A DNA stretch of 33,179 nucleotides, taken from positions 1 to 33,179 of the forward strand of contig JAUNLC010000015.1 in NCBI GenBank assembly GCA_030532465.1, given 5' to 3'. Below the pieces are notes generated by a model. It made no database searches and was not told where the DNA came from. It saw nothing but the letters and a program-made list of their open reading frames with translations. Both the position numbers and the translations under genes were made by a program. Source of the DNA: Campylobacter sp. (lineage in GTDB: Bacteria > Campylobacterota > Campylobacteria > Campylobacterales > Campylobacteraceae). Below, piece after piece: positions 10,259-33,179 of this stretch; within the stretch, counting starts at the first letter, position 1, and each line of letters opens with the position of its first letter.

Positions 10259-10297
10259 ATCGCTCCTTTAGTTTTTATAGCGATTATGTGCTACTAT

Positions 10298-10312
10298 CCC
10301 CTCCCCCTCCCC
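10298..10312. repeat. C4-T-C5-T-C4 mirror tract
   Basis: CCCCTCCCCCTCCCC on the + strand, a perfect mirror repeat with 13 cytosines of 15 in an otherwise AT-rich intergenic region (10204-10471, 268 bases). On the - strand it is G-rich and lies 40-54 bases upstream of the strong start at 10258. A TGC-TACTAT word (10289-10297), resembling an extended -10, abuts it on the + strand. Such tracts are slippage-prone in Campylobacter. Confidence 0.6.
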
Positions 10313-25781: not shown

Positions 25782-26651
25782 ATGGAATTTTTGAAGTTTA
25801 TATTTTCACCCATTATCGCGGTTTTTAAGTTTATCAACACCTATTTTAAGGCGATGATATTCTTGCTGATAGTCTTTTTGATATTTTCAAGCGGTGAAAG
25901 TAGCGGCATAAAGGCTGCAAATTTGGCTCAGATAAACATCTTGGGAGCCATACGAGATAGCTCAAAAATACTCGAAGAGATACACGCGGCAAGCGAGGAT
26001 GAGCATATAAAAGGAGTGTTGCTTTTTATCGATAGTCCGGGCGGCGCGCTTGCTCCAAGCACGGAGCTCGCAATCGCTATTAAAAATTTAAGAGCTAAAA
26101 AGCCTGTAATCACCTACGCAAGCGGCTCGATGACAAGCGGAAGTTACTATGCGGGTGTAAATGCAAATAAAATTTTAGCAAATCCGGGCTCGTTTATCGG
26201 CTCTATCGGAGTTATCTTGCAAGCGCCCGATATAAGCGAGCTGGCAAACAAGATCGGAGTAGCGCAGCAGGTGGTAAAAGCGGGTGAATTTAAAGAGGCC
26301 GGAACTTTTGCTAGAAAGTGGAACGAAGCCGAGCGAGCAGAGCTTCAAAACCTTGTAAGGCAGTCTTATGATATGTTTGTAAGCGACGTTGCCAAGGCTA
26401 GAAATCTTGACATAAACTCTAGCTACAAATGGGCGAATGCGCGTGTATTTTTGGCAAAAGACGCTAAAAATGTGGGGTTGATCGATGAACTAAGCGATTA
26501 TTATTCGGCAAAAACAGAGATAGAAAAGCTAAGCGGAGTAAGCGAGCCTATCTGGAAAGAAAAGCCTAAATTCGAGAAATTTATGGATGAGTTTTTACAA
26601 AAAAATGTCGATAGCTTTTTGGATACGCTTTTTGTGGCTAAATTAAAATAG
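25782..26651 (+). CDS. sppA: Signal peptide peptidase SppA (short form)
   Basis: 289-residue membrane-anchored serine protease that degrades leftover signal peptides. One N-terminal membrane helix (about 23-41), then the ClpP-like fold: LLFIDSPGGALAPS, the nucleophile Ser in ASGSMTSGSYY, and the general-base Lys in VVKAGEFKEAG. It is the single-domain form, about half the length of E. coli SppA (618 residues). AAGGAAAATC precedes the ATG. It is followed by the 335-base non-coding gap with the long hairpin. Confidence 0.94.
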   Translation: MEFLKFIFSPIIAVFKFINTYFKAMIFLLIVFLIFSSGESSGIKAANLAQINILGAIRDSSKILEEIHAASEDEHIKGVLLFIDSPGGALAPSTELAIAIKNLRAKKPVITYASGSMTSGSYYAGVNANKILANPGSFIGSIGVILQAPDISELANKIGVAQQVVKAGEFKEAGTFARKWNEAERAELQNLVRQSYDMFVSDVAKARNLDINSSYKWANARVFLAKDAKNVGLIDELSDYYSAKTEIEKLSGVSEPIWKEKPKFEKFMDEFLQKNVDSFLDTLFVAKLK

Positions 26652-26725
26652 TTAATAAAATTTCATAACTTGAAAAATAAAATAAAAAATTATAATAAAT
26701 AAACTAGTTTTAAATTTTAAATTTA

Positions 26726-26731
26726 TATAAT
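26726..26731 (+). promoter_or_regulatory. Predicted -10 box for a possible small RNA
   Basis: TATAAT at 26726-26731 would place transcription start at about 26737-26739, directly at the foot of the hairpin beginning at 26741. Another TATAAT occurs at 26691-26696. Both are in AT-rich sequence, so support is modest. Confidence 0.4.
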
Positions 26732-26737
26732 TACGTT

Positions 26738-26795
26738 GTGGGTCTGAGACAAAACATCCCTTCCCTTTCTTTCCCTTCCCGTGAAGTCTCAGACC
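26738..26795 (+). ncRNA. Candidate hairpin small RNA with C-rich loop
   Basis: The 335-base gap between sppA and ribD (26652-26986) has no gene. It holds a perfect 10-bp stem, GGTCTGAGAC (26741-26750) with GTCTCAGACC (26786-26795), around a 35-base loop. The loop contains a 23-base mirror repeat (26758-26780): two CCCTTCCC blocks flank TTTCTTT. Read as RNA on the + strand, four UCCC-type elements are displayed in one loop, suited to pairing with purine-rich ribosome binding sites or G-runs. No U-tract follows the stem, so the 3' end is unknown. It could instead be a DNA structure or protein-binding site. The rest of the gap is AT-rich with a weak AAACTTA/TAAGTTT hairpin near 26900 and nothing else I can support. 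Confidence 0.4.
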
Positions 26796-26986
26796 TTATG
26801 AAATCTTTTAGCTTTTACCGAAATTTTCAAATTCTTATATCATTGACTTGCGATTTAAATATGATTGCTTGGATAGCACTCTTAAATTTATAAACTTATT
26901 TTAAAATTAAGTTTTATTGAGTATTCTGACTGATAGAGTTACGCACTGCATTGATTTATATAACAAAATTTAAGAAATTTGGCATA

Positions 26987-27985
26987 TCAAATACGCTTAA
27001 ACCAGCCATAATTATCATCGCCGAAATTTGAGCCAAAAAGCCTTTTAAGCTTTAAATTTAACCTCACGTTTGGCGCGTCTTTAAACTCGCTTGATTGATA
27101 GATCAGTAGCCACTTAACTCGTTCGTCAAGATTTTTTAAGAAATTTTCACCGCCTTCAAACATAACCAAAGGCTTTTTAAAGGCGCTTTGTAAGCTGTTT
27201 GAAATCTCGACGTTTCGGTTGTCTACTTTAAAAAGAGGGATATTTTCATCAAATTTTTTATCTCTTGAATATATCAGCACATCAGGATTTTTGCCGTTTA
27301 GTATAAGCCTAGCGTCTAAAGTCGGACGATCCGTCCTAACCGTATTTCCGCCGATAACCAATAGATCGCAAACGCTTCTTAATCGGTGTGAGTGAGTTCT
27401 ACTAAGTTGGCTTGAGATTATCCCTCCGCTTGCAACGCCGTTTGCGCTAAGAGCGAGTTTAAAAAAGCTAAAATTTCCGCTTTGCCAAGCTAAAAAAGGC
27501 TCCAACAGCTCATCTGCGGCCTCTTTTAAAACGCCAAATTTTATCTTTACTCCGCTATTTTTTAAAATTTCAGCGCCACCGCAAGCGATTTTGTTTTCAT
27601 CGGCTTTTGCGATAACAACTTCGCTAAATTTAAGCTCTTTAAGCAAATTCGCACAAGGCGGAGTTTTTCCCTCATGAGAGCATGGCTCAAGCGTTACGTA
27701 AGCTTTGGCGCCGACAAGCAAATTCGAGTGATTGGCAAGGATAAATTTATATAACTCTTTTGCATCATCGGGAAATTTAAAATTTGAATTTAGCTTTAGC
27801 AAGGCTGATTTTACCGCATTTAACTCAGCATGCGCATAGCCCGCCTTCTCATGAGCCTCAACTGCTAAAATTTGTCCGTTTTTATCAAGTATCAAGCACC
27901 CTACGGCTGGATTTGGGTAAGTTAGAAGCTGAAATTCCCAAGCCTTTTTAACGGCTAGAGACATATAAAATTCATCGTTTATCAT
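26987..27985 (-). CDS. ribD: Riboflavin biosynthesis deaminase/reductase RibD
   Basis: Bifunctional enzyme that deaminates and then reduces the pyrimidine intermediate after GTP cyclohydrolase II; 332 residues. The deaminase domain has the zinc motif HAELNAV and EPCSHEGKTPPC, while the C-terminal reductase domain includes ANGVASGGIISS and GGNTVRTDRPTLDARL. The spacing between HAE and PCSH is about 50 residues, roughly 25 more than in E. coli RibD, through an inserted segment (FKFPDDAKELYKFILANHS). The reductase end is short. The ribosome binding site is weak (GGA). No FMN riboswitch is apparent upstream. Confidence 0.93.
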   Translation of the reverse strand: MINDEFYMSLAVKKAWEFQLLTYPNPAVGCLILDKNGQILAVEAHEKAGYAHAELNAVKSALLKLNSNFKFPDDAKELYKFILANHSNLLVGAKAYVTLEPCSHEGKTPPCANLLKELKFSEVVIAKADENKIACGGAEILKNSGVKIKFGVLKEAADELLEPFLAWQSGNFSFFKLALSANGVASGGIISSQLSRTHSHRLRSVCDLLVIGGNTVRTDRPTLDARLILNGKNPDVLIYSRDKKFDENIPLFKVDNRNVEISNSLQSAFKKPLVMFEGGENFLKNLDERVKWLLIYQSSEFKDAPNVRLNLKLKRLFGSNFGDDNYGWFKRI

Positions 27986-32725: not shown

Positions 32726-32750
32726 TTTCACTTTATTGCCAAAAATAATG

Positions 32751-32756
32751 TATAAT
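32751..32756 (+). promoter_or_regulatory. Predicted -10 box for lpxC
   Basis: TATAAT preceded by ATG; start expected near 32763, 25 bases before the lpxC start codon. It is one of the clearest sigma-70-type -10 words in the window. Confidence 0.5.
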
Positions 32757-32787
32757 TAGAAAAATTTAAAAATTTTAAGGGAAAATT

Positions 32788-33179
32788 TTGCAACAAACAA
32801 CGATAAAAAGAGCTGTTGAAAGTGTAGGAATAGGACTTCACAAAGGCGAGCCTATAAAGATAACTTTAGAGCCAACAAGCGCAAATACGGGTATAGTTTT
32901 TTATAGAAAAGATTTGGGAGTTAGCTACAAAGCCGAGCCAAAAAACGTAATCAACACTCAAATGGCAACTGTCATAGGCGGTAAAGAAGGCTACATATCA
33001 ACGATCGAGCATCTATTAAGCGCTATAAGCGGATATGGGATAGATAATATACGAATAGTTTTGGATGCTAACGAAGTGCCCGTAATGGACGGAAGTGCGA
33101 TAAGTTACTGCATGATGCTTGATGAAGCAGGTATTGAGAAGTTAAATGAGCATAAAAGAGCCATCATCATCAAAAAAGA
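32788..33179 (+). CDS. lpxC: UDP-3-O-acyl-N-acetylglucosamine deacetylase LpxC (5' part)
   Basis: First committed step of lipid A synthesis. The frame runs open from a TTG at 32788 to the window end (130 full codons), so about 165 residues are missing. The N-terminus QQTTIKRAVESVGIGLHKGE matches the LpxC start, and the zinc-ligand motif IEHLLSAI (His75) and VPVMDGSAI follow. TTG is taken as start because AAGGGA (32777-32782) is 5 bases upstream and no ATG lies near. It follows the M23 peptidase gene as in C. jejuni. Confidence 0.95.
   Translation, partial: MQQTTIKRAVESVGIGLHKGEPIKITLEPTSANTGIVFYRKDLGVSYKAEPKNVINTQMATVIGGKEGYISTIEHLLSAISGYGIDNIRIVLDANEVPVMDGSAISYCMMLDEAGIEKLNEHKRAIIIKK

Follow-up and report, generated by a model that had tools for sequence, protein, structure and literature searches.

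A hairpin that presents a pyrimidine-only loop segment lies between sppA and ribD in a genome of Campylobacter sp., and we estimate at about 60% the probability that it represents an independent small RNA gene, read from the plus strand, whose product would pair with G-rich leaders or ribosome-binding sites. The window, i.e., the whole stretch of DNA analyzed, comprises 33,179 nt (assembly GCA_030532465.1, contig JAUNLC010000015.1, positions 1 to 33,179, forward strand). Judging from sequence and conservation, sigma-70 RNA polymerase would start at about position 26738 from an AT-rich TATAAT promoter. The predicted transcript consists mainly of one stem-loop, in which a stem of 10 to 11 bp presents the unpaired C/U-rich loop. 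By analogy with RepG and CJnc190, this loop may pair in trans with G-rich mRNA leaders or ribosome-binding sites, and such pairing would most often block translation.

The hairpin and its genomic setting

The gap (26652 to 26986, 335 bp) separates two convergent genes: sppA (25782 to 26651, plus strand), which encodes a signal peptide peptidase of the peptidase S49 type (Pfam PF01343, 2e-48), and ribD (26987 to 27985, minus strand), which has a PF00383 deaminase match and a RibD_C match slightly under the cut-off. No conserved open reading frame (ORF) was found in the gap. The predicted small RNA body occupies 26738 to 26797 on the plus strand, from the approximate start to the position at which conservation ends. 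Its stem, made of a 5' arm, GGTCTGAGAC (26741 to 26750), and a 3' arm, GTCTCAGACC (26786 to 26795), is perfect over 10 bp and is extended to 11 pairs by a G26740-U26796 wobble. The enclosed loop is 35 nt long, and within it the run TCCCTTCCCTTTCTTTCCCTTCCC (26757 to 26780), the proposed target-binding site, consists of C and U only, includes four CCC triplets, and has a mean unpaired probability of 0.97 in the predicted fold. The initial annotation had placed and described the TATAAT box, the stem, the triplets, and the 335-base gap correctly; the segment that it took to be 23 bases long is indeed purely pyrimidine but measures 24 nt, and the stem that it called GC-rich (6 of 10 pairs are G-C) deserves the term only relative to a genome of 40% GC. 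On the 3' side of the hairpin the sequence reads TTATGAAATC here and TTGCAAATTC in the second genome that carries the element (G018; see below), and no terminator with a U-run was called there.

The C/U-loop hairpin exceeds what is expected by chance. Its 24-nt run is the longest pure purine or pyrimidine run in the window, the next being 16 nt; in 100 dinucleotide shuffles, runs of at least 24 nt arose at 0.02 per shuffle, and none contained 12 C/G residues. The folding energy is unremarkable (z = -1.7), and this genome has many perfect 10-bp stems (15 in the window), so that the strength of the hairpin lies in its loop composition and conservation, not in its stem.

The predicted promoter and the pattern of conservation

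Sigma-70 promoters of C. jejuni combine a periodic A/T signal with a -10 box and do without a -35 box (PMC3656092). The AT-rich region at 26667 to 26734 on the plus strand fits this pattern: it has periodic A/T, with an A/T tract, TTTTAAATTTTAAATTTA, and a TATAAT at 26726 to 26731, and no -35 box, although the TG of an extended -10 is missing. Nine bases intervene between the TATAAT and the beginning of the perfect stem.

Among 48 genomes of the genus, the element was found in one further genome, that of a second species (G018), as a single copy in the same sppA-ribD gap, and a search with a 23-mer of the loop, allowing up to three mismatches, likewise returned 2 of the 48, once each and both at this locus. 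The window is largely syntenic between the source genome (G000) and G018, with aligned coding DNA 84.6% identical, and fourfold-site identity is only 51 to 53% at the flanking sppA and ribD. Within the gap, BLAST aligned an island of 149 bp (26649 to 26797) at 91% identity and nothing more until ribD. In the RNA body, 2 of 60 positions are substituted (96.7% identity, position by position) and one A is inserted in G018; the 5' arm and the C/U run are identical. The sole stem change, A26793 to G in the 3' arm, retains pairing by turning U-A into U-G, a single half-compensatory change between two carriers. The promoter region differs at 4 of 68 positions, three of them at its upstream edge; these 68 bp are thus conserved nearly like the RNA body, which exceeds the needs of a bare promoter. 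Immediately ahead of the predicted start, the trinucleotide that follows TATAATTAC (26735 to 26737) is GTT here and ACC in G018; it differs at every position, and nowhere else in the core do changes cluster.

An identity as high as that of the RNA body is reached by about 2% of the 60-nt segments across the 33 kb (1.7% of the intergenic ones), so identity alone is suggestive, and the weight comes from the unalignable surroundings and the sharp boundaries of the island. A -10 region that is kept, a spacer that is free to vary, a body that is kept, and nothing conserved beyond it are what a short plus-strand RNA gene predicts, and the plus-strand small RNA proposed in the initial annotation is, as a prediction from sequence, well supported by this pattern. 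The opposite side (26798 to 26986) cannot be aligned with G018, and no conserved promoter region was found there for the minus strand. A small protein was considered and rejected: the plus-strand frame that opens with GTG at 26738 is interrupted by the one-base insertion in G018, which excludes a conserved reading frame.

Elsewhere in the window, the last 454 bp align with G018 at 86%, with one stretch at 97%. This region (32726 to 33179) has no complete ORF of 100 amino acids and is probably a gene cut by the end of the window.

Distribution beyond the two carriers

In the next closest genomes, G003 and G023 (69% SppA identity), the end of ribD follows sppA almost directly and the element is absent, so both genes manage without it. 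A comparable C/U-loop hairpin was also absent from 28 further regions downstream of sppA; a few weakly called stems there, with runs of 12, were disregarded. The initial annotation had made its proposal depend on conservation in related species; the hairpin is kept in G018 and was not found elsewhere. The covariance search of Campylobacter genomes that it had suggested gave a similar picture. Our model, R1, was built from the two carrier sequences only, which are nearly identical; it recovered both carriers, and its other matches were weak, with E values of at least 0.09 in the 48 genus genomes and at least 0.002 in 399 genomes of the order. One of these matches (L109) coincides in part with the beginning of a reading frame and was rejected; two others (L106 and L107) lie between genes and were set aside because an E value of about 0.02 among 399 genomes is expected by chance. 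With two near-identical input sequences R1 is blind to distant relatives, so that its negative results apply to close relatives of the element only.

No Rfam family matched the window at gathering score, the best subthreshold match in the gap (E = 0.63) being irrelevant. The statement that no known family has this layout therefore holds for Rfam, but functional analogues of the layout have been published (see below). Plasmids and phages gave no match to the single-copy element, and the loop 23-mer was absent from viral contigs and from a named genome collection that leaves out the nearest records of the source. A mobile or phage origin was rejected on the lack of plasmid and phage matches; viral contigs that share the identical stem sequence carry unrelated loops.

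Relation to known C/U-loop RNAs

RepG of Helicobacter pylori, with which the initial annotation had compared the hairpin, pairs through a C/U-rich loop with a G-rich leader (PMC8295292). The analogy is apt, as RepG, CJnc190, and CjNC140 all use C/U-rich loops. The present element resembles RepG in being a stand-alone intergenic gene with an unpaired C/U-rich loop and a proposed pairing to G-rich leaders, and by prediction it shares the RepG type of loop, a 24-nt C/U run that is 0.97 unpaired and can form about 17 bp with a G-tract. The two differ in that the RepG loop belongs to a second, terminator stem-loop, whereas here a single 5'-proximal hairpin lacks a U-run. RepG is encoded between hp1043 and hp1044, an orphan response regulator and an unknown protein (PMC8295292), while the neighbors here are sppA and ribD, not homologues of those genes.

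In C. jejuni, which lacks the RNA chaperones Hfq and ProQ, CJnc190 uses its C/U-rich loop to pair with ptmG at a G-rich ribosome-binding site (PMC8687705). The common ground is the C/U-rich loop, the bacterial class, and the proposed blocking of G-rich ribosome-binding sites. However, CJnc190 is encoded between Cj1650 and map, is cut by RNase III from longer precursors, and has an antisense partner, CJnc180 (PMC8687705), whereas the present hairpin sits between sppA and ribD with a conserved putative promoter directly at it. CjNC140 contacts the GA-rich small RNA CjNC110 via a CU-rich loop, a mode that its authors suggest is conserved in Epsilonproteobacteria (PMC10470494). Compared by description, it shares with our element a CU-rich stem-loop proposed for RNA-RNA contact, but it has two stem-loops and a CUCCUU motif that is absent from the present loop. 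If our reading is correct, the element would act in the manner of these RNAs, but its position, its lack of a terminator loop, and its lack of an Rfam match set it apart from them. It is best described as a new, lineage-restricted addition to a functional kind, not to a sequence family.

Candidate targets

If the open UCCCUUCCCUUUCUUUCCCUUCCC loop acts by pairing, its partner must be G-rich. The best pairing site in the window is a G-tract on the minus strand, GGGGAGGGGGAGGGGAU (10296 to 10312), about 94 nt upstream of a 154-amino-acid ORF; as a target it is speculative. The predicted duplex has about 17 contiguous pairs and -32.2 kcal/mol, the best non-self value of 13,256 positions scanned in the window. 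Yet this duplex is weak evidence, because pairing is almost bound to arise between the most extreme pyrimidine run, which is the loop, and one of the most extreme purine runs, which GGGGAGGGGGAGGGGAU is. The ORF has no Pfam match, and both it and the G-tract lack a counterpart in G018. On the minus strand the tract upstream of this ORF reads GGGGAGGGGGAGGGG (10297 to 10312), and the start of the ORF is overlapped by a frame of 39 codons whose ribosome-binding site, AAAGGAGCGATATG, is the better one.

Both carriers have AAGGGAA ribosome-binding sites ahead of four orthologous genes, which by eye we named efflux outer-membrane lipoprotein-like, htpX-like, 36-amino-acid lipoprotein, and glutamine amidotransferase-like (trpG/pabA). 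Sites of this type were not enriched, numbering 17 and 23 in the carriers versus 12 to 34 in eight noncarriers, and the shared motif AAGGGAAATTCATAAATG occurs in the noncarrier G023 too. The anti-Shine-Dalgarno role put forward in the initial annotation is thus not demonstrated: relatives without the hairpin have such sites just as often as the two carriers. It is analogy and conservation, rather than any target, that underlie our estimate for the plus-strand RNA. Other candidates were rejected: matches to GGGAAGGG and GGGRRGGGR in the two carriers fall mostly within genes or beside repeats, and one strong pairing site (G000, contig C4) is embedded in degenerate intergenic sequence. Neither the window scan nor the motif sites in the two genomes yielded a conserved mRNA target specific to the carriers.

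Three repeat copies in G018 (L119, L139, and L147) share a near-identical sequence whose last bases are GGGGAGGGGGGG(G)GA, and in the two copies examined (L119 and L139) this sequence lies directly downstream of a 186-amino-acid ORF. In G000, an intergenic inverted repeat with arms GGGGGAAGGGG and CCCCCTTCCC (L076; contig C81, 19133 to 19170) is placed between receptor-like and substrate-binding-protein-like ORFs; no genome other than G000 yielded this GGGAAGGG site.

Alternative explanations

A small RNA from the same promoter could work in another mode, by binding a protein or as a sponge for a GA-rich small RNA. The behavior of CjNC140 toward CjNC110 (PMC10470494) provides a precedent for the sponge, and the lack of a conserved, carrier-specific mRNA target is in keeping with either version, but the unpaired C/U loops studied in this bacterial class bound mRNA as well, and we regard such a mode as rather unlikely. 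The hairpin might instead be a passive or DNA-level element, such as a bidirectional end signal of the convergent sppA and ribD, a protein-binding site, or a quadruplex or i-motif site. Its position between convergent genes and its ability to fold on either strand would suit this role; however, a 35-nt loop with no U-run on either side makes a poor intrinsic terminator, and the element exists in a single copy and is missing from the nearly closed gap of G003 and G023. We consider this explanation improbable.

It is quite improbable, in our judgment, that the functional RNA is the minus strand, which would expose a purine-rich loop, GGGAAGGGAAAGAAAGGGAAGGGA, containing GGGA four times; this RNA might be a 3' extension of ribD that folds into a G-quadruplex or is bound by CsrA at its GGA motifs. 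The stem is equal on this strand, the loop offers a four-run G3 motif and several GGA, and ribD is transcribed toward the hairpin. But the side that would lie upstream (26798 to 26986) is unconserved, so that neither promoter nor leader is kept, and the conserved side is that of the plus-strand promoter; moreover, CsrA activity in C. jejuni is described as controlled without antagonizing small RNAs (PMC4894983). That the hairpin arose by chance and its conservation reflects only slow divergence is highly improbable: the z-score of only -1.7 and the presence in the window of other intergenic stretches that are 97% identical over 60 nt would fit, but outside the island the gap cannot be aligned, the changes are concentrated in three bases by the predicted start, and all 24 nt of the run are the same in both carriers.

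Possible origin and reach of the regulator

Beyond the plus-strand small RNA gene itself, it is conceivable, if somewhat doubtful, that the element is a minimal one-hairpin C/U-loop regulator that arose independently within the Campylobacterota, in one small lineage, and reads G-tracts in several leaders, including length-variable tracts of the phase-variation type, and that convergent evolution repeatedly yields such loops. C/U-rich loops aimed at G-rich sites seem to be a recurrent local solution in bacteria that lack Hfq and ProQ, and a further, apparently unrelated case outside C. jejuni and Helicobacter would back a repeated origin of such RNAs. A hairpin this small would also allow direct testing of the targeting rule.

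As a separate observation, homopolymeric G tracts of 9 to 10, of the type linked to phase variation, occur in or beside reading frames at L122, L126, L132, and L136 in G000 and at L125, L127, and L131 in G018. One of them, in L126, is close to the beginning of an open frame of 516 codons.
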